Source: a virus
Length of the DNA stretch: 33,879 nucleotides
IMG/VR virus record: IMGVR_UViG_3300000116_000089
Location: 1 to 33,879 of that record
Direction: 5' to 3' (one strand)
The notes under the pieces were generated by a model. The model was given only the letters and a program-made list of their open reading frames with translations. It was not told where the DNA came from and made no database searches. The translations under genes and the position numbers were made by a program. Positions 6,718 through 22,922 of the stretch are shown here, in pieces; the first letter of the stretch is position 1; the number at the start of each line of letters is the position of its first letter.

Positions 6718-7368
6718 CTATGTTTTTAGTTTATTAGTTAATGCTTTGATGCTATCAACAACATCCCGTTGGTCAACCACATGGTATGACTTATGAAGTA
6801 TCATCGCAGTTTGTTTCGCAACTGGAATTGAAGTTACACCTACATCCCGTAGGTATTTTTCAATTTCCCGTTCCGACATTTCAGCTAACTTAACTTTCGT
6901 TACTTTAGCTTTTGGGTTCATTGGAAAAGTCACAAGTGACACTTCCATTAAATCAACTTCTTTAATTATCCTACGTTTCTTTTTATCATCGTACTTATAA
7001 CCATCAGGTGATAAGCGATAGCCAATTGACATAGAATCTAATGCACCCATTTTCATGAGCTCGAATACTTCTCTTCCTTTTTGTGTTCCCATGGCAAGTC
7101 GGCCTTTAAGATATAGGCCTTTAGAATCTTCTGTTAAAGAATCTACGACTCCAATAGGTTCATCGGATTTGTGTTGATATAAAAGTTTTATGGATTTTGG
7201 GTTACGTTCGCCTAAAGTTTTTAAAAATGCACCTTTACGAATTACATCGTTTCCTAAATCTTGGTTGTTGAATATGGATGCATAACCCTCGAACGTACCA
7301 TCATCATCGGCATCAATTTCTTTGTACTCGCAAAGCAAGTCTAAATGTTCGTTTATAATTTCAGGCAT
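6718..7368 (-). CDS. Prohead protease, HK97 family (peptidase S78)
   Basis: The 216-aa serine protease would cleave the capsid delta domain during head maturation. Family hallmarks are EGYASIFNNQDLGNDVIRKGAF (residues 27-48, an S78 signature region), His66 in LLYQHKSDEPIG, Ser114 in DSMSIGYRLS and Glu142 in DLMEVSLVTFP. These match the His/Ser/Glu active-site arrangement of HK97 gp4. GGAGATAG lies before the ATG. It sits 9 bp upstream of the capsid gene, as usual. The C-terminal 50 residues are a probable self-processing tail. Confidence 0.95.
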   Translation of the reverse strand: MPEIINEHLDLLCEYKEIDADDDGTFEGYASIFNNQDLGNDVIRKGAFLKTLGERNPKSIKLLYQHKSDEPIGVVDSLTEDSKGLYLKGRLAMGTQKGREVFELMKMGALDSMSIGYRLSPDGYKYDDKKKRRIIKEVDLMEVSLVTFPMNPKAKVTKVKLAEMSEREIEKYLRDVGVTSIPVAKQTAMILHKSYHVVDQRDVVDSIKALTNKLKT

Positions 7369-7436
7369 TTACTATCTCCATACATTGATAGCTCCATTCT
7401 AACACCCAAAAATACTTTAATACAACAACTGTAGGC

Positions 7437-7467
7437 AAAAAAAAGGGCATCACATTTTGTGATACCC
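7437..7467 (-). terminator. Rho-independent terminator after the 86-aa gene
   Basis: Read on the - strand, GGG-(T)-ATCAC pairs with GTGAT-(C)-CCC across a short AAAAT loop (stem positions 7445-7453 and 7459-7467, one mismatch) and is followed at once by eight T residues (complement of 7437-7444). It lies between the stop of the 86-aa gene and the prohead protease, closing a one-gene unit inside the late operon. Read-through must occur, or a second promoter must exist, for the capsid genes downstream. Confidence 0.8.
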
Positions 7468-7488
7468 TCATGAGGAAAATTTATTTAT

Positions 7489-7749
7489 CTATTTTGATTG
7501 GAAAACACCTAGGTCTTTTGTTTTACCATTCTTATTAGTAATTATAACTCTCTTGCCTTTTCCTTTCCAACTTACTGCTTGATAATTTTCTTCATCATAA
7601 AGTTTATAATCTATACCTAACATTCTTTTTATATATCTGAATGAGTATTCAGCAGAGTTTGCTACTGGTACAGCTCGAGCTGTTGCATTTTCTATCTCAG
7701 CTATAAGTTCTAAAGTTTCGTAGTCAGTAAGTTTAATTGTAGTTGTCAT
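7489..7749 (-). CDS. Unknown 86-aa protein with its own promoter and terminator (moron-like)
   Basis: I do not recognise this protein. It has an N-terminal segment of predicted helices (KLTDYETLELIAEIENATARA), then Tyr-rich and basic residues with a KGKGKRVIITNKNGKTKDLG strand-turn-strand end. It has no cysteines, signal peptide or membrane segment. It lies between head morphogenesis and prohead protease, yet has a near-consensus promoter (7806-7833), operator-like repeats and a terminator (7437-7467). That is the hallmark of a moron, a gene independently expressed within a late operon. Its control region closely resembles that of the amidoligase operon at 20.2 kb, so it is probably co-regulated with it. 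A DNA-binding, host-takeover or peptide-substrate role is possible but unsupported. Confidence 0.75.
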   Translation of the reverse strand: MTTTIKLTDYETLELIAEIENATARAVPVANSAEYSFRYIKRMLGIDYKLYDEENYQAVSWKGKGKRVIITNKNGKTKDLGVFQSK

Positions 7750-7799
7750 ATTTGTATCCTCTGTTTCATTAAATTTAAGAGTTTTTTTATCAACTCCAT
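7746..7799 (-). CDS. Possible 17-aa leader peptide ahead of the 86-aa gene
   Basis: An ATG at 7799 lies about where transcription from the 7806-7833 promoter should begin, so it would be leaderless. It opens a 17-codon frame (MELIKKLLNLMKQRIQI) whose TGA overlaps the ATG of the 86-aa gene (ATGA). Translation could couple to the downstream gene. The amidoligase leader also has a short frame (MKRIQR) ending in an ATGA overlap, which gives some weight to this. It may equally be chance in a short leader. Confidence 0.3.
   Translation of the reverse strand: MELIKKLLNLMKQRIQI
7779..7796 (-). promoter_or_regulatory. Leader hairpin of the 86-aa gene
   Basis: On the - strand GAGTT (7792-7796) pairs with AACTC (7779-7783) across the 8-nt loop GATAAAAA. 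The hairpin starts 9 nt after the -10 box, so it would form at the 5' end of the transcript. The amidoligase leader has a comparable 5' hairpin with an 8-nt loop beginning GACAAA. Possible roles are mRNA stability or protein binding. Confidence 0.45.
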
Positions 7800-7805
7800 G
7801 TATTA

Positions 7806-7833
7806 ATTATACCTAATAGGACAATATGTGCAA
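7806..7833 (-). promoter_or_regulatory. Sigma70-type promoter of the 86-aa gene
   Basis: On the - strand there is TTGCAC (7828-7833), a 16-bp spacer and a perfect TATAAT (7806-7811). The spacer contains GTCC-TATTA-GG, a CC-N5-GG palindrome touching the -10 box. The promoter at 20194-20222 shares both hexamers and 12 of 16 aligned spacer positions. Initiation is expected near 7799. Confidence 0.8.
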
Positions 7834-7855
7834 GCTCTTTTATGGCCAATATGTG
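7822..7855 (-). repeat. Direct repeat overlapping the -35 box, probable operator
   Basis: On the - strand CACATATTGGCC (ending the copy at 7844-7855) and CACATATTGTCC (7819-7830) match at 11 of 12 positions and are spaced 25 bp apart. The second copy overlaps the -35 hexamer. Such placement suits a repressor or activator bound to one face of the DNA. The regulator is unknown; candidates are the HTH proteins at 16822-17073 and 22665-22922. Confidence 0.5.
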
Positions 7856-7954
7856 AAATAATTACATAAATATGGCTTATTTTGTAAAAAATGGCTCTCT
7901 TACAGCTCGTTCTTGGCTTTTTTTGATACCCTCGCTTGTGGTTGCCTATGGCTA

Positions 7955-8809
7955 TTATTCAATAAACTCAACCATATCAGCATCTACCACATCTACAAAA
8001 CAACGGCAATTAATTACATTTGATGCTCCACCTCTATCATCTCCAGCAGTTGCCATCGGCAGTTCTATGCTTCCTGAACGTGTTGGAGTTAAAACCATAA
8101 AGTCTTCATCTCTCTCTACTATCTTTCCGTTCATATCTGCATGCCACTGTCTAGTTCTTGAGTCTAATGCACTGCCCCAAATTTTAACTGGCCTATCAAG
8201 TTTCAAAGATTTTGCTGTTTGCAATATTCCATAGTTCATTGCTTGATGAGTTTCTGTTCTTGCAATTGTCTTTGCTCTCGTTGAAGAGAAAGCTGTTGAC
8301 TCAGAAATTAATTCTGCTGTTGCAATTTCGCTTAGACCCTCTGCAATACTGTAGCCAATTGTACTTTGTATTTTTGCTTTGGTAGTTTCAGTAATGTAAG
8401 TTACATGCTGTGCAGTTTCTTCACTTACATATTTTACAATTACATCAGGAGTATCTTCCAGCAATCTCATCCCAACTTTGGCAACTAAAGTCGGTGGTAC
8501 AAATATTCCATCATCACCATCAATTGGTACATCAGCTTTTTTCTGCATCTCTGTTCTCTTTAAAGTATTATCTGTCATAGTTTCAATAACAGTTTTTTGA
8601 TGTTTAGATAATATTAAATAGGCTTCTCTCCAAAACTTTTCAAAATATTCTCGGCCTACTAAGTTATCAAGTTCGTATTCAAACTTAGCCTTTCTGCTTT
8701 GCTTTGCAAAAAATTTAGTTAATTGGGATTCAAGTGGCCTAACTAATCTTAAAAATAATCTAAGATTTTCACGATATCTTTTTCTAGTGCTCAGTTTTAT
8801 TTTAGCCAT
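7955..8809 (-). CDS. Phage head morphogenesis protein (Mu gpF / SPP1 gp7 family)
   Basis: The 284-aa product is a minor head protein bound near the portal, thought to act in DNA packaging or ejection. The C-terminal half has the PF04233 pattern: IARTETHQAMNYGI, then KIWGSALDSRTRQWHADMNGK, and GGASNVINCRCFVDVV. The N-terminus is basic and helical. I chose the ATG at 8809 (MAKIKLSTRK) because AGGAAAC lies 9-14 nt upstream. An upstream in-frame ATG at 8848 would add 13 residues but overlaps more of the HNH gene and lacks a good ribosome-binding site. The overlap with the HNH stop is 13 nt, suggesting coupled translation. Confidence 0.9.
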   Translation of the reverse strand: MAKIKLSTRKRYRENLRLFLRLVRPLESQLTKFFAKQSRKAKFEYELDNLVGREYFEKFWREAYLILSKHQKTVIETMTDNTLKRTEMQKKADVPIDGDDGIFVPPTLVAKVGMRLLEDTPDVIVKYVSEETAQHVTYITETTKAKIQSTIGYSIAEGLSEIATAELISESTAFSSTRAKTIARTETHQAMNYGILQTAKSLKLDRPVKIWGSALDSRTRQWHADMNGKIVERDEDFMVLTPTRSGSIELPMATAGDDRGGASNVINCRCFVDVVDADMVEFIE

Positions 8810-9078
8810 TCTAAAGTTTCCTGTAAAAGTTCTGTCTGTGTTCCCCATTTCTGAGAAAAATATAAAGGATTCCTGTGATAGCTTTCATCTGAATTTCTAT
8901 GATGATATGGACACAAAGGAATCACTGAAAAGTTGTCTGACCTTTTTCCCATAGCACCACTTGGAATATGATGTAATTCTGATGGAGTATCAGGATATCC
9001 ATTTTTTTTACAAATTATGCAACCTAACTCTGCAACTCTTTGCATATGTTTTTTTTCGGCCAATGTTTTTGACTTCAT
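8797..9078 (-). CDS. HNH endonuclease, small (Ref/DUF968-like)
   Basis: The 93-aa protein contains a full HNH/treble-clef site: CIICKKNG (Cys20, Cys23), ELHHIPSGAMGKRSDNFSVIPLC and YHHRNSDESYH. The LHHI...IPLC..HH pattern is typical of the Ref / RecA-dependent nuclease and DUF968-type HNH group. The ATG overlaps the portal stop as ATGA, showing tight coupling. HNH nucleases encoded beside terminase and portal often take part in DNA packaging by nicking or stimulating terminase cleavage (established for HK97 gp74). That role is plausible here. Confidence 0.82.
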   Translation of the reverse strand: MKSKTLAEKKHMQRVAELGCIICKKNGYPDTPSELHHIPSGAMGKRSDNFSVIPLCPYHHRNSDESYHRNPLYFSQKWGTQTELLQETLEWLK

Positions 9079-11126: not shown

Positions 11127-12401
11127 CTAGCTAATTTTAAATACTGCACTGCCTGAATTTTGTAAAGATGTTATCGCCCAAACCAAAGCATCAACTCTGT
11201 CATCATGGTACTTATTGTTTCCACCTGTAAATTGGCACATCTGTTCCTCCAGTTCTTTAAACACTCCACAAAATTTTACACGACCTTGCTCGCATAAACT
11301 TGCTACTGGTTCAGCTCGAACCTGTTTTCCACGGCTCGCACGAACACTTCTAAACGGTACACTTTGGTCTTGAGTTCTTAATAATCTTTCAATTAAGTCT
11401 CCACCATTGTTAACCTCTGCTATAATCTTATCACATTCGTATTGTTTATAAAGTGATATGGCTTTCTTAATCCAAGCATCAGGAGAATAAATTCCACTTC
11501 CATCATGTAAAACATAATAAATATTATTGACATCACGGCCTACTACCATGATTCCAGTTTCATCACTATCCTCATTACTTGTAACGGCTGGGTCAATTGC
11601 TACATGGATTTTCTTTAAGTCAGTTGGAAATGTATTCACTCTGTTTTCTTCAATGTTTTTATAATTCCACAAAGCTCCCTCAACATCCTCAAGAATTTCA
11701 GCATACAATTCTTGTCGGCCTATCCTAGTTCCCTCATATCTTTCTCTTAGCATTGCTATAGAAGATTCAGCTAAGTTATCAATGTTCTCAAACGTGCTAC
11801 CACTTATAACTTTGGTGTCTGACCGTTTAGCCAACTCTTTTATTATCTTAGTCGGCCTTGGTGTTGTAGTGATAATGCATTTTGGATTTTGACCTAAACG
11901 TAATGCCATTAATAAATTATCCCACGTTTCTGTATATCGCCAACTGGCCAACTCATCGCACCATGCCCTATGAAATTGAACACCACGAAGCCTATCAGGT
12001 TCTATAGCTGGAAAGCCTATTATCTTTGAGCCGTTGTAGAAATGTATTTCGTTATCTGATTTGTTATACCCAACTTTGCTTAATAACTCAGGGTCAATGC
12101 TGTTTATAAATCCTGAGTCTCCAGCAAACACAACTCTTTTTAAGTCACCGTAAGTTGGTGCGACTACACCACAAACCACATTATCATTTATTAAACAGTA
12201 TTGAATAATATCCATAACCCCAGATTTTGTTTTTCCCCACCCTCGACCAGCTAGAAATAAATGGATGTTATGTTCGCTATCCTCATCAACTAATTGATTA
12301 GGCCTAGCTTTGCTATACCAGTCATAGAGTAGATTTACTGATATCTTTTTTTGGTAATTTAGTTGCTCGAATTGTTTCGACAACTGCTTTAAATTTATCA
12401 T
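11127..12401 (-). CDS. terL: Terminase large subunit
   Basis: The 424-aa packaging motor has an ATPase domain with Walker A AGRGWGKTKS (51-60) and Walker B with catalytic acid (RAWCDE, Asp149-Glu150). Its RNase H-like nuclease domain has HVAIDPAVTS (Asp270), an acidic DSDETGIMV segment, AEVNNGGDLIERLL and a late acidic pair NKYHDDRVDAL. It pumps DNA into the prohead and cuts concatemers. The start overlaps the TerS gene by 80 nt. No better ATG exists downstream before the ATPase core, though an alternative start codon inside the overlap is possible. The stop lies 9 bp before the portal gene. Confidence 0.95.
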   Translation of the reverse strand: MINLKQLSKQFEQLNYQKKISVNLLYDWYSKARPNQLVDEDSEHNIHLFLAGRGWGKTKSGVMDIIQYCLINDNVVCGVVAPTYGDLKRVVFAGDSGFINSIDPELLSKVGYNKSDNEIHFYNGSKIIGFPAIEPDRLRGVQFHRAWCDELASWRYTETWDNLLMALRLGQNPKCIITTTPRPTKIIKELAKRSDTKVISGSTFENIDNLAESSIAMLRERYEGTRIGRQELYAEILEDVEGALWNYKNIEENRVNTFPTDLKKIHVAIDPAVTSNEDSDETGIMVVGRDVNNIYYVLHDGSGIYSPDAWIKKAISLYKQYECDKIIAEVNNGGDLIERLLRTQDQSVPFRSVRASRGKQVRAEPVASLCEQGRVKFCGVFKELEEQMCQFTGGNNKYHDDRVDALVWAITSLQNSGSAVFKIS

Positions 12402-12705
12402 TTTGCTCGCTCATGTTATTAATTTCTAATACCTCTGTCTCTCTCCACTTGCATTGTGTTTTTAACCAAAATATACAAGCAGTAACATTTCCTCTGCTGT
12501 TACCAGTTGCAATCTTAAACAAGTTCTCGGTAACTTTTGCATTGGCCTGTGCTTTGCCAACTGATAATTCTTTTTCATAATGCTTTGTTAAAGTCGGTCT
12601 AGTGATATCAAGGATTGAGCATATCTGTTCTTGTGGCAAGCCAAGTCCTGATAACTGTCTTACCATGTTTGAAGTCTCTTCACTTTTCTTTACAATTTTT
12701 GGCAT
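12322..12705 (-). CDS. terS: Terminase small subunit (putative)
   Basis: The 127-aa product lies directly upstream of TerL. It has an N-terminal HTH (LGLPQEQICSILDITRPTLTKHYEKELSVG), a helical oligomerisation stretch (AKVTENLFKIATG) and FWLKTQCKW, a pattern typical of small terminase subunits that recognise phage DNA. I prefer the ATG at 12705 (MPKIVKKSEETSN). An in-frame ATG at 12768 would lengthen it and overlap the ParB gene. A TTGACA-N17-TATAAA promoter ends only about 10 nt before 12705, so a transcript from it may be leaderless. Confidence 0.82.
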   Translation of the reverse strand: MPKIVKKSEETSNMVRQLSGLGLPQEQICSILDITRPTLTKHYEKELSVGKAQANAKVTENLFKIATGNSRGNVTACIFWLKTQCKWRETEVLEINNMSEQNDKFKAVVETIRATKLPKKDISKSTL

Positions 12706-12714
12706 ATATATCTT

Positions 12715-12743
12715 TTTATAATGTAAAAATAAACTTCTGTCAA
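12715..12743 (-). promoter_or_regulatory. Candidate late promoter in front of TerS
   Basis: On the - strand there is a perfect TTGACA (12738-12743), a 17-bp spacer and TATAAA (12715-12720). It overlaps the end of the ParB gene and directly precedes TerS, the natural start of a packaging/head operon. Initiation would fall near 12708, leaving about 3 nt before the ATG at 12705. In AT-rich DNA chance matches occur, but the fit and the position are both good. Confidence 0.55.
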
Positions 12744-13315
12744 ATAAACTCTTTACCTGTTTCTTCATTGATAGCTTTTCTGTTAGTGTAGTTTTGCCAT
12801 AGTTGAATTATCAAAGCACATTCACCATCACTACAAATTAGTTTATTTTTCCCTAGTATCCATACTTCTCCAGCCTTAGTAGTAGGATTACTTACCTCTA
12901 AAGTATCTGATAAATTAAAATCAGGTATTAGGTTGCTTAATGCTTTTTCATTAAAGCCAGTCAGCTTTAAGTTAAAGCCATCATCTTTTATAAATTGCAT
13001 ATTTAATTTCAAAAAGTCTCGCTTCCAACTACTCGACTCAGTTAGTTTGTTATCAGCAATGCAATATGTTTTCTTTTTAGCTTCACTCCAACTGGTCGCC
13101 ACAATGCAAGGAACATCCTTAATTCCTATAATTTTTCCAGCTAATACTCGGCCATGGCCAGCAATAATCTCATTATGCTCATCAATCAAAACTGGCATAG
13201 TCCAACCAAACTCTTTTATAGACTCAGATATTTGCAAGACTTGTTCAGATGTATGCACCCTAGGATTAGAGTCATAAGCAATAAGCTCATCAATGTTTTT
13301 ATTTATTATCTGCAT
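12740..13315 (-). CDS. ParB-like protein carrying the remnant of a deleted DNA methyltransferase
   Basis: Residues 1-100 form a ParB N-terminal domain (SNPRVH, SIKEFGWTMPVLIDE, IIAGHGRVLAGKIIG). In many phages this domain is fused to an N6/N4 DNA methyltransferase whose start reads like GDLWILGKHRLLCGDS and whose end reads like WQNFTGKKA-ETGKSF. Here residues 149-164 (GEVWILGKNKLICSDG) run directly into 171-190 (QLWQNYTNRKAINEETGKEF). The entry and exit strands of the methyltransferase are therefore present, but the catalytic body, including a DPPY-type motif, is missing. The 191-aa length fits a deletion. GAGG precedes the ATG. The ParB part may still bind or cleave a substrate; methylation is not expected. 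Confidence 0.78.
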   Translation of the reverse strand: MQIINKNIDELIAYDSNPRVHTSEQVLQISESIKEFGWTMPVLIDEHNEIIAGHGRVLAGKIIGIKDVPCIVATSWSEAKKKTYCIADNKLTESSSWKRDFLKLNMQFIKDDGFNLKLTGFNEKALSNLIPDFNLSDTLEVSNPTTKAGEVWILGKNKLICSDGECALIIQLWQNYTNRKAINEETGKEFI

Positions 13316-13826
13316 CTACATCCTCAACCAAACTTGGATACCAAGACTTGGAATATTTATAATTAGCTATATCTTTTTTTTCAAAAACTCCCTCTGTATA
13401 CAACAAATCTATTTCTGCTTTAGTACCACCAATGGCTTTAGCCAATGCTCTAGGCTCATAACCAAAGTAATCAATTAATTCTTTAACCATCTCGGCCATT
13501 CTCCATGCAACATGATTTCCCTTGGCACGATTCATTCTAACGGTAAGTATCATTGCCTTGTCTCTAGTTATTGCAAATACTACACAAGGTACTTGGCCTT
13601 TATATTTTTTATAAATTTTTTCATTGTCTAATGATAACTGCACTCTATGAAAACCATCAACAATAATCATTTGTTGGGTTACTATTACTGGTTGTATCCA
13701 ACCGTACTCCAAAATGTTTCTTGCTAAACTATTTAGCTCCGTACTTAAAACAACATTTGGATTATAACTATTGCCAAGTAACAGACTCGCATCAATCCAT
13801 TCTATTTTTTCAACTGGGTCTTTCAA
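13299..13826 (-). CDS. ParB-like protein paired with the PAPS-reductase-like enzyme (IbrB-like)
   Basis: The 175-aa protein has a ParB/sulfiredoxin-like core: NPNVVLSTELNSLARNILEYGWIQPVIV, IIVDGFHRV and VRMNRAKGNHVAW. The C-terminus has an HTH-like segment (ALAKAIGGTKAEIDLL). It starts with TTG at 13826, supported by a strong AAGGAG 7-8 nt upstream, and overlaps the preceding gene by 17 nt. ParB-like proteins next to PAPS-reductase-like ATP-pyrophosphatases occur as IbrB/IbrA pairs in E. coli prophages, where they were named as regulators of immunoglobulin-binding genes; their chemistry is unresolved. It may be the nuclease or substrate-recognition partner. Confidence 0.72.
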   Translation of the reverse strand: MKDPVEKIEWIDASLLLGNSYNPNVVLSTELNSLARNILEYGWIQPVIVTQQMIIVDGFHRVQLSLDNEKIYKKYKGQVPCVVFAITRDKAMILTVRMNRAKGNHVAWRMAEMVKELIDYFGYEPRALAKAIGGTKAEIDLLYTEGVFEKKDIANYKYSKSWYPSLVEDVDADNK

Positions 13827-14895
13827 TTTGTTTCTCCTTTGGTAGTGGTTGTATTGGTCTTTTGTATTGACCAGCTAGAAAATAATTCAAAATATAATCT
13901 ACTGGATATGCTATAGGGTCTCCACGGTGAGCAACAACAGTCTCAATAAACTGCTCATAGGCTTCATGTTTTTGTTTAGCATCTGTTATATTTTCTTTTA
14001 TATACTCAAAGACAGTATCTAGGTTTTTACCATATTTATTTAAAATGCTTTTTCTATCAAACTCCTTGTAGTATTTATCTTGTAAAATCATCTCAGGAAA
14101 TATTTCAATAATTTGGGAGTAAAACCAAGGGTCGTATGTTTTTAACTTATGAAACTTTTTTGCATTTTCAGTATGAACTGGTGTTGCAACTCTTAGTGAG
14201 TCAGCATTCCATAATTGCTCATTATAAATATGACAATACTTTATTTTCTTTTCATAGAAGTATCTAAAAACATCATTTTCTTGCCAATCAAATATCGGCT
14301 TACATAATTTAATATTTTTTGCATCAGACTTTCTAGGTGTATTAATATAATTCTCATTCAGTTTAACCATACAAGATGCATACCTAGTCAATGACTCAGA
14401 TGCTCTAATACCATTTACAAATGCAATTTTGCCACGATAAAAACTAGCTGTATAAGAATCCATATTGTGCTGGTTGAAAACCCTATTGTCAGTAGCCTGA
14501 GTTTGTATAGCAAATTCAGGTATTGGCCTAACGTGTTTTCTTTTTTTATCCCACTGAACATATGTTGATGTTTTCCCTAATATAAATTTTTGTGAATACA
14601 TTGGAACGGCAAAATATTTCATGTCAATCCAATCCTTGTCTTTATAATCTTTTACAAACTCTATAACTGACTGTGGAATTAATTCTTCATCTCTAAAAAC
14701 CACGTTAATTTTTTCTTTGATACCCAATTTTTCTTGCACTTCTTTACATAAATGTAATGTTGCTAAACTATCTTTGCCACCACTAAACATAACCACAACA
14801 GTATCGAATGCATTGTAGATATGCTCTATTCTTTTCAGTGATTCTTCGTAGACATTAGTTTCATTAAACTTCTGTATACGTTTTTTGTATTTCAT
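13810..14895 (-). CDS. PAPS-reductase-like ATP pyrophosphatase (IbrA / DUF3440-like)
   Basis: The 361-aa protein belongs to the PP-loop superfamily. SGGKDS (residues 38-43) binds ATP for adenylation. Downstream are DEELIPQSVIEFV, WDKKRKHVRPIPEFAIQTQ, FVNGIRASES, a CMVKL/KLCKPIFDW cysteine pair and the NADSLRVATPVH region. These fit PAPS-reductase/DUF3440 proteins rather than classic sulphate-assimilation CysH, because the C-terminal ECGIH-type motif is absent. Relatives (DndC, IbrA) act in sulphur transfer or remain uncharacterised. It overlaps the zinc-ribbon gene by ATGA and the ParB gene by 17 nt, so all are co-translated. A nucleic acid thiolation or modification role is inference only. 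Confidence 0.8.
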   Translation of the reverse strand: MKYKKRIQKFNETNVYEESLKRIEHIYNAFDTVVVMFSGGKDSLATLHLCKEVQEKLGIKEKINVVFRDEELIPQSVIEFVKDYKDKDWIDMKYFAVPMYSQKFILGKTSTYVQWDKKRKHVRPIPEFAIQTQATDNRVFNQHNMDSYTASFYRGKIAFVNGIRASESLTRYASCMVKLNENYINTPRKSDAKNIKLCKPIFDWQENDVFRYFYEKKIKYCHIYNEQLWNADSLRVATPVHTENAKKFHKLKTYDPWFYSQIIEIFPEMILQDKYYKEFDRKSILNKYGKNLDTVFEYIKENITDAKQKHEAYEQFIETVVAHRGDPIAYPVDYILNYFLAGQYKRPIQPLPKEKQIERPS

Positions 14896-15029
14896 TTTAA
14901 TCTTTCAGGAATTACTTTCTTTATATTACATAAACTACAACAGTGGCCTGAAGATAAAGGTTCAGCATTATGCTTGTCATGTTTATCTTTTAATTTTTTT
15001 TTACACAAGCAACAAATATTATTTTTCAT
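14892..15029 (-). CDS. 45-aa zinc-ribbon protein
   Basis: The short frame opens at an ATG at 15029 with an excellent ribosome-binding site (GGAGAAC) and ends in a TGA that overlaps the ATG of the PAPS-reductase-like gene (ATGA). The protein has Cys6-x2-Cys9 and Cys31-x2-Cys34, with extra Cys7 and Cys30, a pattern for one structural zinc, separated by a Lys/His-rich loop (KDKHDKHNAEP). It overlaps the ParB gene upstream by 11 nt. Tight coupling suggests it works with the PAPS-reductase-like and ParB proteins, perhaps as a nucleic-acid-binding or metal-carrier subunit. It does not match a named family I can identify. Confidence 0.8.
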   Translation of the reverse strand: MKNNICCLCKKKLKDKHDKHNAEPLSSGHCCSLCNIKKVIPERLK

Positions 15030-15621
15030 TTTGTTCTCCAATAAATAAATCTAATCTTTCTGCATGAGTATTCAAGTCAGGATAATCTAACTTTAGTTTT
15101 AAAAGAAAGTCATACCAACGGCCTTGCTGTTTTTCATTGTCAAAAATAATTGCATACTGAATAATTTTTTCAGAAAACTTTTCTTCATCCTCATGAGTAT
15201 CATCAGTCATATCAAATTCTGCTTTAATCTGTAGCTTTGGGTCTAACTGCATCTCATCAAGTGAAAATCCAATATCTTGTAACTCATTGATTTTAAAAGA
15301 TTTATGCAATATTTCGAAGTCAAAATCTCCAGCAGTATTTTTATTAAGCCGTACATTTAATTCTTTGAATTGACTTTCTGTTAGTGTTTTACTCGGAACA
15401 TAACAATCAACATATTGTATTCCCAATCTTTTAAGAATCGTTAATCTGCCATGGCCACCACAAATAGTAAAATCAGTATTGATAACTATTGGCTCGCATA
15501 TGCCAAACTTTGTAATGCTTTGTTGAAGATTATCTAACTTTTCATCAGATAAAATTCTAGGGTTCAAATCATATTCTTTTAAGTCGCTAACTTTTTGCTC
15601 TATCAAATCCCACTTATTCAT
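15019..15621 (-). CDS. ParB-like nuclease-domain protein
   Basis: This 200-aa protein is the third ParB-domain protein of the cluster. Motifs are LKEYDLNPRILSDEKLDNLQQSI, PIVINTDFTICGGHGRLTILKRLG and FKELNVRLNKNTAGDFDFEIL, all typical of phage ParB/RepB/Spo0J nuclease-like domains. The C-terminal 80 residues are acidic and unassigned. I chose the ATG at 15621, which overlaps the helicase stop and has GAGGA 8-12 nt upstream. A TTG 15 nt earlier is less likely. Unlike partition ParB proteins it lacks an obvious DNA-binding HTH domain. Confidence 0.75.
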   Translation of the reverse strand: MNKWDLIEQKVSDLKEYDLNPRILSDEKLDNLQQSITKFGICEPIVINTDFTICGGHGRLTILKRLGIQYVDCYVPSKTLTESQFKELNVRLNKNTAGDFDFEILHKSFKINELQDIGFSLDEMQLDPKLQIKAEFDMTDDTHEDEEKFSEKIIQYAIIFDNEKQQGRWYDFLLKLKLDYPDLNTHAERLDLFIGEQNEK

Positions 15622-16465
15622 AACCAGTATCCTCAAATGTTTTAGTTGAATTATTCCATGCTAGTGTGCAACTTCCAACATTTCCCTGAATGTCCACTTC
15701 TCTAACTTTGGCTACTCTAACTTCTGTCACTTGTTTTTCATAATCCCTAGTGACAATTATTCCTGTATCGGCTTTATTATTCCAATGGGCTGTGCCACTT
15801 ATATCATACAAGCTGTTGACCCTAAACATTCCATCAGCACCTCGTATTTGTTTGTTTGGATGAGCCACCATAAAAGATACAGTGTTTGTTTCCCTGTTGA
15901 ATCTTTTTATCTTAGATATCAATAAAGAAATGTGTTCATCTTCTCTCAAGTTTGCTCGGTTAGGATTAATCTCATTATAAGGGTCAATTATAAAAGCATC
16001 TATTCCAAATACATCTACACAATATTTACACCTATCTAATATCCAATCAATGTCAGGACTGTCACCTTTTGAGTCTAACAAATAAAAATGTTTGTCTATA
16101 AATTCTATCGCTTCAATGATTTCATTTTCATTCGCCCTATTCTCAAAGATACTATCAAAGGGTTTGTGTAAATACTTTTCACATAATCTTTTTAAATTCA
16201 CGGCTAAAGAATGCTCTGGAGAAAATATGCACCACTTAAAATTTTCATTCCTAGCTGTTCGCATTGCAATATCATAAACCAAACTAGACTTACCACAATT
16301 TGGAGTTCCAGTTACAATGTTAAATGATGGTTTTATTATCTTAAAATATTTATGTAAGTCATTAAAACCACAATGGTATTGCTTCTGTGTTTTGCCACTA
16401 TACAATTCCCATATTTCCTCAGTCAAATTTTTGGCAGTATATACTCCCTTTGGTTGGTCGCTCAT
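15614..16465 (-). CDS. Replicative DNA helicase (DnaB/T7 gp4 C-terminal-like)
   Basis: The 283-aa RecA-fold ATPase has Walker A GTPNCGKSS (53-61), an H1a-like glutamate (SPEHS, residue 84), Walker B FIIDPYN (Asp161), the sensor strand VSFMVAHPNKQ near 200, and the SGTAHWNNKADTGIIVTRD region typical of DnaB-family and Twinkle-like helicases. It lacks the N-terminal primase or DnaB interaction domain, so it probably relies on the preceding winged-helix initiator and the host primase and polymerase. AGGAG lies upstream of the ATG. It would unwind phage DNA at the replication fork. Confidence 0.88.
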   Translation of the reverse strand: MSDQPKGVYTAKNLTEEIWELYSGKTQKQYHCGFNDLHKYFKIIKPSFNIVTGTPNCGKSSLVYDIAMRTARNENFKWCIFSPEHSLAVNLKRLCEKYLHKPFDSIFENRANENEIIEAIEFIDKHFYLLDSKGDSPDIDWILDRCKYCVDVFGIDAFIIDPYNEINPNRANLREDEHISLLISKIKRFNRETNTVSFMVAHPNKQIRGADGMFRVNSLYDISGTAHWNNKADTGIIVTRDYEKQVTEVRVAKVREVDIQGNVGSCTLAWNNSTKTFEDTGYE

Positions 16466-16477
16466 CGTTGCTCCTAG

Positions 16478-16825
16478 CTATCCAGCTAAAAAATTTTTAT
16501 TCTTTTTCTTTTTTACTAAACTTAAACAAGTGTCTTTTCTTATATTAGTATTGTGTGAAGAATCTTCACATTGAATATAATAACCGTTGTAAGTCATTAC
16601 ACCTTTTCTTGTTTGCTCCTTTCTTATTAATTTCATATCAACTAACTTTTTTATATGAACAATTACACTTCTCCTACTTAACTGACAAACTTTGGCAATA
16701 TGTTCTTGGCTAGGATAACAATAATTATTTTTATCAGCATAATTCGACAACATAATCAAGACTAGCTTTGTTGTAGAATGTTTTGCATTTTGCTTCATTG
16801 CCCATGCCATTGCATTGAAACTCAT
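16478..16825 (-). CDS. Winged-helix replication protein (phage O-like / HTH_36)
   Basis: The 115-aa protein consists of a winged-helix domain. TTKLVLIMLSNYADKNNYCYPSQEHIAKVCQLSRRSVIVHIKKLVDMKLI is the standard HTH_36 arrangement found in phage replication initiators, with a basic tail (LVKKKKNKNFLAG). The ATG overlaps the upstream regulator stop as ATGA, and the helicase follows after 12 bp, the same pairing as lambda O-P or O-DnaC modules. It probably binds the phage origin and loads the helicase. The origin is not identified. A transcription-factor role is an alternative. Confidence 0.75.
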   Translation of the reverse strand: MSFNAMAWAMKQNAKHSTTKLVLIMLSNYADKNNYCYPSQEHIAKVCQLSRRSVIVHIKKLVDMKLIRKEQTRKGVMTYNGYYIQCEDSSHNTNIRKDTCLSLVKKKKNKNFLAG

Positions 16826-17073
16826 GATTTATTACTAAGCACTTTTTCCAAATTTAAAAACTCATCATGCCTTTCGCTGATAGGTGTTTTATAATAAAAA
16901 TCATTGGCTTGCACTAGCTCATTAGTTGCAGTTAATATTTTGGTCATATTCTCCCTGTTAGGAATCCTGTTTCCATATTTATATTTGTTAAGAGTATCTA
17001 TCTTAATTTTTGTAATCTCACTGAATTGCCACATAGTGGTTTCAGTTTGTTTTAAATATTCCGTTAAAGTCAT
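16822..17073 (-). CDS. HTH transcriptional regulator (Cro/CI-like)
   Basis: The 83-aa product starts at ATG 17073 behind a perfect AGGAG. An upstream in-frame start at 17160 lies inside the control region and is unlikely. The body is a single HTH: MTLTEYLKQTETTMWQFSEITKIKIDTLNKYKYGNRIPNRENMTKILTATNELV, matching the xre/Cro pattern (helix 2-turn-helix 3 at about residues 15-36). It is the first leftward gene next to the divergent control region, the classic position for a repressor that regulates both arms. No lysogeny genes are seen, so it may time expression rather than keep a prophage. Confidence 0.78.
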   Translation of the reverse strand: MTLTEYLKQTETTMWQFSEITKIKIDTLNKYKYGNRIPNRENMTKILTATNELVQANDFYYKTPISERHDEFLNLEKVLSNKS

Positions 17074-17203
17074 TGGTAATCTCCTAGGTTCTCTCCAGCT
17101 AAAGTACCATTGTTTAGTAATCTTAGTCAAGGTACATTTAAGACTTGTATCTATTGTCATATACTGCTACATTGAGTAATCCTAAACAATTACGGAGGTA
17201 AGG
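17074..17203. promoter_or_regulatory. Divergent control region between the two arms
   Basis: These 130 bp separate the leftward regulator and the rightward early genes. An inverted repeat TTGTTTAG (17110-17117) / CTAAACAA (17182-17189) has further similarity beside it (TAATC next to the left arm, GTAATC next to the right arm), suggesting paired operators. For the + strand a TATACT -10 (17160-17165) is present with only a poor -35 (TTTAAG, 17137-17142). For the - strand TTGACT (17125-17130) is followed by a weak -10 at about 17101-17107. Operators for the adjacent HTH protein are the simplest reading. Confidence 0.55.
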
Positions 17204-19260: not shown

Positions 19261-19875
19261 ATGAAATCAAAAATTAACGATGAAATTATTGAGAAAACAA
19301 ATTATCCATCAGTTAGTAAAATAATAAATCATAAACCCAATTCTAAATTAATTAAGTGGAGAAAAGAAGTTGGAGAAGATGTTGCTGATTATATTGTAGA
19401 GCAAAGTGCAAAACGTGGAAAAGAAACTCATGAAATTATAGAAGCATATCTTTTAAAGAAACATCATGAAGTTTGCAATATTTTACCTAATGGTTTGTTT
19501 TTAAAAATGAAACATTATATTGACAGAATTAATTCAATTAAATTATTAGAGGGAAACTTGCTTAGTCATGAATTAAAAATGAAAGGCCGAGCAGACTGCA
19601 TCGCAAATTATGGTGATGAACTTTCTGTTATAGAATTTAAAACTACAAAAACATATCGAGAAAAACCAAAATTAGAATGGTGTTTGCAATGTACTGCATA
19701 TGCTTTGATGTATGAAGAAATTTATGGAACTAGAATAAATGATTTTATAATTATTTGTGCTGGAGAAGATGACTCTGTAATTGTTTTTAGAAGAGCAGTT
19801 ACAAAATTTGTTGAGCCATTAAAAGAATTAATTGAATCTTATAAAACCAATGGAGATAAAAATGAAACCCAATAA
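19261..19875 (+). CDS. PD-(D/E)XK-family exonuclease
   Basis: The 204-aa protein resembles phage and MGME1/Cas4-like PD-(D/E)XK exonucleases. Features are YPSVSKIINHKPNSKLIKWRK, a GKETHEIIEAYLLKK helix (the conserved His), GRADCIANYGDELSVIEFKTTK (the D...ExK core) and EWCLQCTAYALMYEEIYG (the Gln-Tyr motif). I chose ATG 19261 (MKSKINDE), with GGAG 8 nt upstream. An overlapping ATG at 19249 would add four residues. It probably degrades one strand to feed the ERF annealing protein. Its stop overlaps the next gene by 14 nt. Confidence 0.82.
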   Translation: MKSKINDEIIEKTNYPSVSKIINHKPNSKLIKWRKEVGEDVADYIVEQSAKRGKETHEIIEAYLLKKHHEVCNILPNGLFLKMKHYIDRINSIKLLEGNLLSHELKMKGRADCIANYGDELSVIEFKTTKTYREKPKLEWCLQCTAYALMYEEIYGTRINDFIIICAGEDDSVIVFRRAVTKFVEPLKELIESYKTNGDKNETQ

Positions 19876-20122
19876 TGAAAAAAACAAAGTCTTGAATAGA
19901 GAAATAAAAAAATGGACAGCTAGTCATAAAGATGTTTTGGATAGACTAACTAAATGCATTGATGTATTAAAGAAAAATTTAGATGACAACCAAAAAGCAT
20001 TTAATGATGTAGTGCATACAAAAGAATTTAATCCTAAACTGGCCGTGGAATATATAAGAAAGATTAACGAAGATATTAATGCAATTAACAGTATTTCTGC
20101 ATTAAAAATGAAAGAAAAATAA
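19862..20122 (+). CDS. 86-aa helical protein, unknown
   Basis: I take the ATG at 19862 (MKPNNEKNK) because GGAG lies 9 nt upstream. An in-frame ATG at 19832 is inside the nuclease gene and less likely. The product is all-helical and highly charged (REIKKWTASHKDVLDRLTKCIDVLKKNL), suggesting a coiled coil. It ends the recombination block; a weak T-run (ATCTTTTTTT) follows at 20122. No named family. It may be a partner of the nuclease (inference). Confidence 0.7.
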   Translation: MKPNNEKNKVLNREIKKWTASHKDVLDRLTKCIDVLKKNLDDNQKAFNDVVHTKEFNPKLAVEYIRKINEDINAINSISALKMKEK

Positions 20123-20193: not shown

Positions 20194-20222
20194 TTGCACG
20201 TATCGTACCAATTCGGTATAAT
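20194..20222 (+). promoter_or_regulatory. Sigma70-type promoter of the amidoligase operon
   Basis: TTGCAC (20194-20199), a 17-bp spacer and TATAAT (20217-20222). The spacer contains TACC-AATTC-GGTA, a palindrome touching the -10 box. The distant promoter at 7806-7833 has the same hexamers and the same CC-N5-GG element. It sits in the 148-bp gap 20123-20270 upstream of the amidoligase; the rest of that gap shows only an ATTGGCC word shared with the upstream side of the 7.8-kb promoter. Confidence 0.82.
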
Positions 20223-20230
20223 AATTATAA

Positions 20231-20250
20231 CAGCTAGACAAACTTAGCTG
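20231..20250 (+). promoter_or_regulatory. 5' leader hairpin of the amidoligase operon
   Basis: CAGCTA (20231-20236) and TAGCTG (20245-20250) form a perfect 6-bp stem with the 8-nt loop GACAAACT, beginning 8 nt after the -10 box, so at the very 5' end of the transcript. The 7.7-kb leader has an equivalent hairpin with an 8-nt loop GATAAAAA. After it come GAGGATACAA and the start codon in both leaders. Confidence 0.55.
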
Positions 20251-20270
20251 GATATGAAGAGGATACAACG

Positions 20271-21077
20271 ATGAGAAAATTTGGAATTGAAATTGAGTTT
20301 ATAGGAAATGTTTCACGTGAAACTATGTGCGATAGAATCAATGCAGAAGTAGATGGTGTTAACATCATAACTGCTGGCTACATGGACAAATCAAATAAAT
20401 GGAGAATGAAAACTGATGGTAGTTTAGATGGTAGATATGCTATGGAATTAGTTACACCAATTCTTCAGACAGAAGATGACATAGCTAAACTAAAAGCAGT
20501 TATTAAAGTTATGGAAGCTAACGGTACTATCAATAGCAGTTGTGGTGTACATTGCCACGTTGATGTTAACGGTGCTGATAGTAAAGATATAAAAAAACTT
20601 ATGAAATTTTTATGCAAGTATGAAAGTGCTTTAGAAAGTTTAATTGCACCAAGCAGAAGAGGACAAAGTAGATGGTGTAAAAGTATCTACGAAACTGAAA
20701 CTGATTTAGTACAAACTTTTAATAGGTTGAATAACAAAACTGTTAGAAACTTAATTAACAATACTCAATATGCAAAGTTTGGAAGATACAGTAAATGGAA
20801 CTTTAAAAACTTTTGGTCGCAAGGTAGTTTTGAAAACAGATGTCACCAAGCAACTTTAAATGCAGATAAAGTCGAGCAGTGGGTTAGATTAAATGTTGCA
20901 TTGATAGAAGCTAGTTTTAACTTTAGAGGGCAAGTTGCTCATGCTAATGAGACTACAAAAACATTCGGTACTAAAAAATTACTTGATGATTTAAGAGCAA
21001 AGAAAGTTATTTCTTTGGAAACTAAAAAATTCTTCATGAGAAGATATAAGGAGCTTAACAATGAAGTTTGTAGATAG
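20271..21077 (+). CDS. Amidoligase (Amidoligase_2 family)
   Basis: The 268-aa enzyme belongs to the amidoligase family of the glutamine-synthetase-like fold, predicted to form amide bonds between amino groups and carboxylates using ATP. Motifs are FGIEIEF (4-10), YAMELVTPIL (56-65), CGVHCHVD (91-98) and, near the C-terminus, FENRCHQATLNADKVEQWVRL, the family arginine-rich end. It is the first gene of its own operon (promoter 20194-20222; GAGG before ATG) and overlaps a small gene by 17 bp, followed by a gamma-glutamylcyclotransferase. Comparative genomics has linked phage amidoligases with such cyclotransferases and predicted peptide-tag or crosslink chemistry. Substrates are unknown. Confidence 0.88.
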   Translation: MRKFGIEIEFIGNVSRETMCDRINAEVDGVNIITAGYMDKSNKWRMKTDGSLDGRYAMELVTPILQTEDDIAKLKAVIKVMEANGTINSSCGVHCHVDVNGADSKDIKKLMKFLCKYESALESLIAPSRRGQSRWCKSIYETETDLVQTFNRLNNKTVRNLINNTQYAKFGRYSKWNFKNFWSQGSFENRCHQATLNADKVEQWVRLNVALIEASFNFRGQVAHANETTKTFGTKKLLDDLRAKKVISLETKKFFMRRYKELNNEVCR

Positions 21078-21303
21078 TAGAAACGAATTTGTATTTAAAG
21101 CAAATACAAAAGTAGAGTTAGCCAATGAGTTATACAAAACAAGTTGGCTAAAGCATGATGCAGATGATGTTAATGACTGGTGTTACAAGGCCAGTCAAAG
21201 ACTAAACATGGTAGAGGATATTACTTTACAATACACTTACGATGACCTTGATGGTTTTATAAGTGAGTTAATTAAATTCAATATAATAGAGGAGATACAA
21301 TAA
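21061..21303 (+). CDS. Small protein between amidoligase and cyclotransferase
   Basis: The 80-aa acidic protein (MKFVDSRNEFVFKANTKVELANELYKTSWLKHDADDV...) has alternating helices and aromatic residues and no known motif. It overlaps the amidoligase by 17 nt and its TAA overlaps the cyclotransferase ATG (TAATG). Both overlaps imply coupled translation with the enzymes. It may be the peptide or protein substrate, or an accessory subunit, of the amidoligase system. This is inference from position only. Confidence 0.72.
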   Translation: MKFVDSRNEFVFKANTKVELANELYKTSWLKHDADDVNDWCYKASQRLNMVEDITLQYTYDDLDGFISELIKFNIIEEIQ

Positions 21304-21710
21304 TGTTATATTATTCTTACGGAGCAAATACAAATATAGACAACATGGCATACAGATGCCCTAAAGCAAAAGTCGTTAGTAGCTTAGTGCTACCTGACTA
21401 CAGATTAGTTTTTAGAGGTGTTGCTGATATTGAGCCAGCTAATTACAACCAAGTGCAAGGCGTACTTTGGGATATTACTTCTGAATGTGAAAATTCTTTG
21501 GATATATTCGAGGGTGTAGCCAGTGGCCTTTACAGAAAAGAATATTTCTGCATTAAGATAGGTGGCAAGGTAGAGGAAGTCATGTTCTACAAAATGAATA
21601 GCGATGGCTATGCTGACCCTAGCAAGCATTACTTTGATGGTATCCACGATGGTTACAAGCAAAATAATCTTGATGATACATTTTTATTCAATGCCTTGGA
21701 GAATATATAA
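21303..21710 (+). CDS. Gamma-glutamylcyclotransferase (AIG2-like)
   Basis: The 135-aa protein has the cyclotransferase fold signatures: YYSYGANTNIDNM (residues 3-15, the YG-N substrate-binding loop), VQGVLWDIT (51-59) and SLDIFEGVASGLYRK (65-79), where Glu70 matches the catalytic glutamate. These enzymes release 5-oxoproline from gamma-glutamyl amines. Paired with the amidoligase, it may remove or process gamma-glutamyl linkages made by that enzyme. It overlaps genes on both sides by the last base of the stop codon. Confidence 0.86.
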   Translation: MLYYSYGANTNIDNMAYRCPKAKVVSSLVLPDYRLVFRGVADIEPANYNQVQGVLWDITSECENSLDIFEGVASGLYRKEYFCIKIGGKVEEVMFYKMNSDGYADPSKHYFDGIHDGYKQNNLDDTFLFNALENI

Positions 21711-22512: not shown

Positions 22513-22711
22513 ATATTATAATGATGCAGAAGTTTATAAAGCTGATGTAGAAAAGTTTAGGCAAATAGTTAGCACAATTGATATTGCTAAATATAGCCAA
22601 CGTGAATTTTGTTCAATAGTGGATGAAATATTTAATGAAATTTTCCTAAAGGAGGAAATTTACGATGAAGAAAAAAACAAAAACAACCATGATAAAGAAT
22701 CATCTTTATAA
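22493..22711 (+). CDS. 72-aa acidic helical protein, unknown
   Basis: I take the ATG at 22493 (MQKEVDEYY), with GAGGAGG upstream; an in-frame TTG at 22487 would lengthen it by two residues. The product is strongly acidic and helical, with no cysteine motif. It overlaps DUF3310 by 20 nt and the next gene by 47 nt, and its last 15 residues are Lys/Asn-rich in the overlap. Function unknown. Confidence 0.62.
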   Translation: MQKEVDEYYNDAEVYKADVEKFRQIVSTIDIAKYSQREFCSIVDEIFNEIFLKEEIYDEEKNKNNHDKESSL

Positions 22712-22922
22712 TTATGGAAAGATAACTTCATGGGAAGCTATTACTAAATATAAAGCCACAAGACTAAGTGGAATTATATTTAACTTAAAAGCTGATGGCT
22801 GGCCAATTGAAAGTGAAATCAAAAAAACCCAATATGGGTCTTTTGCTGAATATTCAATTGATGTAAAATCTTCGGCTTGGAAAAAGTTTGAAAAAAATTA
22901 TAGGAGTTATAATGTTAGATAA
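22665..22922 (+). CDS. Small helix-turn-helix protein (HTH_39/HTH_55-like)
   Basis: The 85-aa protein has an excellent ribosome-binding site (AAGGAGG). Its HTH reads YNYGKITSWEAITKYKATRLSGIIFNLKADGWPIESE, matching the phage HTH pattern IT..EAI..Y.ATRLS..I..L...G..I. It resembles small DNA-binding proteins near the end of phage early operons and could control the shared promoters at 7.8 and 20.2 kb or the late switch (inference). The N-terminus is basic (MKKKTKTTMIKNH). Confidence 0.8.
   Translation: MKKKTKTTMIKNHLYNYGKITSWEAITKYKATRLSGIIFNLKADGWPIESEIKKTQYGSFAEYSIDVKSSAWKKFEKNYRSYNVR

Follow-up and report, generated by a model that had tools for sequence, protein, structure and literature searches.

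The window, a 33,879-nt stretch of an uncultured virus genome (positions 1 to 33,879 of IMG/VR record IMGVR_UViG_3300000116_000089), contains two promoter-like regions that resemble each other, here called sites A and B. Site A lies ahead of an 86-aa gene and site B ahead of an operon that starts with an amidoligase gene:

7369..7954, no strand: hotspot 1, from the MuF-like gene (7955-8848) to the prohead protease gene (6718-7368)
7489..7749, minus strand: 86-aa accessory gene at hotspot 1
7443..7469, minus strand: predicted intrinsic terminator (7469-7443) closing the 86-aa unit, 12-pair stem and T run
7806..7833, minus strand: site A predicted promoter, TTGCAC (7833-7828), 16-nt spacer and TATAAT (7811-7806)
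7812..7820, minus strand: site A palindrome CCTATTAGG (7820-7812), candidate operator abutting the −10, by analogy with palindromes at the same place in relatives
7778..7797, minus strand: site A predicted 5' hairpin GGAGTT-GATAAAAA-AACTCT, near the expected transcript start
7752..7761, minus strand: site A ribosome-binding string GAGGATACAA, start ATG at 7749
19832..20122, plus strand: 96-aa gene, the downstream side of which is hotspot 2 in relatives
20194..20222, plus strand: site B predicted promoter, TTGCAC (20194-20199), 17-nt spacer and TATAAT (20217-20222)
20208..20216, plus strand: site B imperfect palindrome CCAATTCGG, candidate operator abutting the −10
20231..20250, plus strand: site B predicted 5' hairpin CAGCTA-GACAAACT-TAGCTG
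20259..20268, plus strand: site B ribosome-binding string GAGGATACAA, start ATG at 20271
20271..21077, plus strand: amidoligase gene (PF12224), first gene of the operon at hotspot 2
21061..21303, plus strand: gene for an 80-aa protein, kept between the amidoligase and cyclotransferase genes in relatives L003 and L092
21303..21710, plus strand: gene for a gamma-glutamyl cyclotransferase-like protein

Two control regions and their genes

All parts that the original prediction had listed as shared (TTGCAC, TATAAT, spacer palindrome, hairpin and ribosome-binding string) are present at both sites. Aligned with a single gap, the spacers (16 and 17 nt) agree at 12 of 16 positions, and both core promoters enclose an inverted repeat, which is imperfect at site B. 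TTGCAC-N14-19-TATAAT occurs twice in the window, at sites A and B (N16 and N17), against 0.13 occurrences expected, and two or more were found in 0 of 100 shuffles; exact copies of GAGGATACAA are likewise confined to the two sites. The local alignment score of site A against site B (58) was reached by 0 of 20,000 Markov shuffles and by 14 of 20,000 when the hexamers, GAGGA and ATG were kept in place, which upholds the claim that the likeness exceeds a chance sigma70 match. Promoter, spacer palindrome and ribosome site account for most of the likeness, whereas the stems of the hairpins are unlike in sequence. Both regions are of sigma70 type, i.e., bacterial promoters with palindromes, and this reading of the sequence confirmed sites A and B as the probable control regions of two unrelated accessory genes in an uncultured virus of bacteria.

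Other claims needed revision. The hairpin of site B is remarkable by itself (fold z −3.9), whereas that of site A is not (z −1.3) and is convincing because it has a homologous, covarying counterpart in relatives. Short frames ending in ATGA do exist at both sites (MELIKKLLNLMKQRIQI and MKRIQR), but relatives do not keep them, so they are probably incidental, and leader peptides were dropped as a feature. The idea of site A as a second copy derived from the amidoligase region does not hold either: both are members of a family of control regions.

The 86-aa gene shares its strand with the head genes and has its own promoter-like site (7833-7806) and a strong terminator-like site, both recognized from sequence only. 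Its description as a lone gene was right and is sharpened by the 12-pair-stem terminator that follows it; on these signals, it is an independent insert, with a predicted promoter and terminator of its own, between the MuF-like and prohead-protease genes. No homologue of its product was found by tblastn in phages or viral contigs, nor in any relative locus tested; profile searches returned sub-threshold matches only, and the AlphaFold model was uninformative (pLDDT 41). A capsid search yielded 35 relative loci, most with 67-83% identity, in which the gap between the MuF and protease genes ranges from 86 bp to more than 2 kb and holds differing small genes, often antisense to the head operon. 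The matches lie up to 2,556 bp apart in L004, where a longer MuF reading frame takes up some of the distance. The gaps of L029 (86 bp) and L026 (121 bp) make hotspot 1 near-empty in these relatives, which could serve as an empty-site model. The genome-contig scan found no close prophage, its best hits being remote capsid matches (33% identity), and no integrase was noticed among the window ORFs read. Elsewhere in the window (12740-15636), a PAPS-reductase-like gene (13810-14895) sits among three genes that look ParB-like by eye; the one tested against the ParB_N profile scored below the cut-off.

The amidoligase assignment rests on a profile match (Amidoligase_2, PF12224; 103 bits against a cut-off of 22, E 2.5e-29). 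The operon comes after the 96-aa gene, at the second hotspot. Five phages have an amidoligase gene together with a cyclotransferase gene, though not at one fixed place in the genome (window 20271-21710, L092 4760-6166, L003 3684-5123, G021 12272-13706 and G029 14290-15721); in at least three, the 80-aa gene separates the two.

Control regions and operator classes in relatives

Palindromes in or beside the promoter were also found in the cassettes of relatives, whose control regions follow the same plan: a palindrome abutting or close to the −10, in many cases a leader hairpin, and then CGAGGAWAA and ATG. The site A leader is clearly akin to the leader family of relatives (TGGAGTTGATAAAAAGACTC...). 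The exact composite motif, put forward earlier as a query for related phages, proved not to be conserved; relatives keep the arrangement only. With GAGGATACAA included, the motif had no match in viral contigs, and without it there was one among 2.9 million, in an unrelated phage and over what reads as tRNA-like sequence, which we judged by eye to be a chance match.

The leader hairpin is supported by covariation. In an alignment of 12 leaders, in which the site B row is misaligned and the site B hairpin was judged separately, 95.6% of cells pair, four of six pairs show compensatory change, and the covariation score was reached by 0 of 500 shuffles. Scanned as single strands against composition shuffles, leader hairpins were mostly not significant one by one. 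Second cassette genes are preceded by a putative intercistronic H-type pseudoknot, GGTG-t-GGGTA-t-CACC-taaac-TACCC, located before the ribosome site (L004 5041 and 5415, L011 1931, L018 8889, L020 5614, L021 8985, L022 6595, L027 410 and G015 5904). Across only nine sequences, all of its cells pair, three pairs covary (in both stems), and 0 of 500 shuffles reached its covariation score. Rfam had no match in the loci scanned, and we offer both the 5' hairpin and the pseudoknot as candidate RNA elements.

We divided the palindromes into operator classes T (TATACTNNNAGTATA), C (ACCCANNNTGGGT) and D (TTGACANNNTGTCA). Most T and C sites in relatives precede cassette genes, some T-class leaders having no hairpin, and the D class precedes the amidoligase operon of L003 and the hotspot gene of L010. 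Exact TATACTNNNAGTATA and exact ACCCANNNTGGGT never occurred in one contig among the relatives scanned for both; the window has one exact C match, inside a coding region. After a helicase-based search had added 80 further loci, 58 of the 64 within-contig pairs (23 contigs with at least two sites) were of the same class (shuffle mean 42.3, maximum 57; 0 of 20,000 shuffles reached the observed value), in a test that was not blind, since some of these contigs had served to define the classes, and whose shuffles overstate independence because the contigs are related. The palindrome classes are nearly exclusive per phage, the mixed contigs being G022, L131 and G021 (at the amidoligase). Aligning whole control regions gave a more modest signal of pairing (3,531 of 100,000 permutations reached the observed value), probably because leaders are common to several classes. 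In G010 (L056 and L057), the ends seem repeated, part of a 144-aa gene (335-769) recurring at 35533-35679, suggesting a complete genome of about 35 kb.

The pairing of a hotspot gene with the amidoligase operon recurs. In L092, whose helicase is 72% identical to that of the window, the 96-aa, amidoligase, 80-aa and cyclotransferase genes follow the window order, and the contig end overlaps L010 perfectly (320 bp, 100%), so that the two probably represent one phage, the closest relative. Their only other blastn match joins the amidoligase promoter to the hotspot-gene promoter (84% over 56 bp), and this shared sequence is of the D class, unlike that of the window. In G021, hotspots 1 and 2 both have TTGACAGTTTGTCATATA, and the amidoligase operon, which sits elsewhere in the genome, has a D-like GGACATAAAGTCATATATA overlapping a T-like site. 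Hotspot 2 and the amidoligase operon share a further operator variant in G029, and T-class sites stand at both hotspots in G022 and G023. Hence, the proposed regulon joining a hotspot gene to the amidoligase operon gained strong support from L092/L010 and from the shared operators of G021 and G029, but its link to the 86-aa protein itself did not, as that protein had no homologue at the tested loci, where other genes replace it. Conversely, similar genes occur under different operators: a 103-aa cassette protein that is 97% identical between L004 and L032 belongs to a C-class operon in the former and has a T-class promoter in the latter, and the promoter of the family MTNLINEQ... is of the T class in L034 and of the C class in L021.

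These observations bear on whether the likeness of sites A and B reflects recent copying rather than selection for a shared regulator, as would be the case for a mobile regulatory cassette duplicated or spread by recombination, like the PeSLs of T4, and carrying no common regulation. Leader hairpins and ribosome sites common to different operator classes and genes are what such copying would leave behind, and the site A region scores higher against the control region of G015 (76) than against site B in the same test (41). However, operator class tracks the phage, not the gene or the leader, and what sites A and B share is mainly the promoter, the ribosome site and the palindrome between the hexamers, with stems that differ. 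We consider copying without common regulation unlikely.

Candidate regulators and the probable basis of the likeness

The window encodes two candidate regulators:

16825..17073, minus strand: gene for an 83-aa Cro-like HTH protein, candidate regulator
22665..22922, plus strand: gene for an 85-aa winged-helix protein (HTH_39), second candidate regulator

No HTH profile matched the 86-aa protein or the three proteins of the amidoligase operon. The Cro-like protein is present in most relatives, and its recognition helix varies between operator classes. Upstream of the Cro-like gene, every T-class VNSWKYG contig tested, these being close relatives of one another, has its own T operator core with zero or one mismatch, and D-like sites occupy this position in L129, L133 and L135. 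The corresponding control region of the window (17074-17203) had no clear copy of the cassette operator. Inverted half-sites GTACCATTG and CAAGGTAC in this divergent region resemble half of the site B operator, though too weakly to be taken for a copy. The KYYYGEK group, which has a different Cro recognition helix, also carries the T-class operator in its cassettes; the operator is therefore not one-to-one with Cro, which weakens the Cro-like protein as the sole determinant of operator class. The winged-helix protein was rejected as the determinant, with no match in the T-class contigs of the KYYYGEK group.

That two phage groups whose Cro recognition helices differ use one T-class operator is also what would be expected if the palindromes were sites of a host transcription factor, varying with the host. 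Against this, the site lies ahead of the Cro-like gene of the T-class VNSWKYG phages themselves, as a phage regulator predicts, and we regard a host regulator as improbable. That ordinary strong sigma70 promoters merely converged on similar sequence with no specific regulation is very improbable, since, although the −35, −10 and SD alone raise similarity greatly in shuffles that keep the hexamers, so few of the constrained shuffles matched the likeness of sites A and B and the palindrome classes are so nearly exclusive per phage.

We consider it likely that the accessory cassettes form a phage-specific operator-promoter regulon, with a mode of control like that of anti-CRISPR/Aca systems. This explanation draws on the shared sequence, the hotspots, the separate transcription-unit anatomy, the within-contig class concordance and the hairpin covariation. 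Sites A and B would then each control one accessory cassette, and the two cassettes would occupy insertion hotspots within the head-gene operon and, downstream of the 96-aa gene, in the early region. Both sites would combine a sigma70-type promoter, whose spacer holds a palindromic operator next to the −10, with a leader hairpin and a standard ribosome site. The operators would be bound by a regulator that the phage itself encodes, most likely a Cro-like repressor; all cassettes would fire together early in infection from host RNA polymerase and be silenced either ahead of late transcription of the neighbouring structural genes or in the course of it. Their products may serve host takeover or anti-defence. 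As related phages would have the same plan with an operator of their own, a cassette gene that moved would come under the resident operator. It appears that the interchangeable accessory genes of each phage answer to one private switch, with relatives having theirs, spelled differently, at equivalent places. More tentatively, and as a possibility that we do not hold to be the expected one, accessory genes may circulate while each phage imposes its own operator on cassettes at several hotspots, a kind of regulatory dialect, with downstream genes also carrying the conserved intercistronic H-type pseudoknot.

If the regulon exists, operator class could identify accessory genes, some perhaps with anti-defence roles, from their regulatory sequence only, an approach already used for archaeal viruses (PMC11065993) and applicable here to a large uncultured phage group. 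Mobile genes that enter another phage genome would also provide a natural experiment in the gain of new control signals.

Comparison with known systems

By analogy, two kinds of system come closest as working models: anti-CRISPR operons under Aca repression (PMC9410906) and the early regulatory sequences that genes of archaeal viruses have in common (PMC11065993). In anti-CRISPR operons, Aca HTH repressors bind inverted repeats in the promoter, and small accessory genes have their own promoter with such repeats (PMC9410906), as in our cassettes; in Mu-like phages of P. aeruginosa, anti-CRISPR genes occupy fixed variable regions (PMC4378225). Unlike those operons, the two units of the window have no recognized aca-like gene, so we did not file them as acr-aca operons, and one operator class would serve several separate cassettes. 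In SIRV2 and other archaeal viruses, anti-defence genes share an early regulatory sequence, with measured expression timing, such that many unrelated small genes of one virus are under one strong regulatory sequence (PMC11065993), similar to the arrangement proposed here. The promoters there are archaeal (TATA/BRE), whereas ours, as read from the DNA alone, are sigma70 promoters with palindromes.

The PeSLs of T4-type phages (Arbiol 2010, Comeau 2014, as cited in PMC4503421), called promoter-terminator motifs in one title, are promoter and stem-loop units tied to small-gene shuffling. A promoter-like site, a stem-loop and gene shuffling occur here too, but the order of parts and the phage group differ; here, the hairpin lies in the leader downstream of the promoter and the operator palindrome differs by phage. 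The SAS/ESAS elements of cluster K mycobacteriophages are likewise repeats at the start codons of unrelated genes, with an inverted-repeat consensus that varies by subcluster (PMC3203893). Their authors see little support for RNA hairpins (PMC3203893), whereas here the stems covary and the promoter hexamers belong to the element; near the starts examined here, the strings are GAGGATACAA or CGAGGAWAA, not the 13-bp GGGATAGGAGCCC.

Morons of lambdoid and Mu-like phages are single genes with a promoter and terminator, inserted between conserved genes (PMC4378225). The 86-aa unit fits this definition by its predicted promoter and terminator and by its flanks, which are adjacent in relatives (PMC4378225). 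Unlike morons, it would share a phage-specific operator common to several insertion sites. For C1 of phage P1 and the stoperators of L5, one repressor site is repeated across the phage genome. The L5 stoperators are mentioned in PMC3203893. In contrast to both, the candidate sites described here lie in accessory-cassette promoters, and their sequence class varies between related phages.
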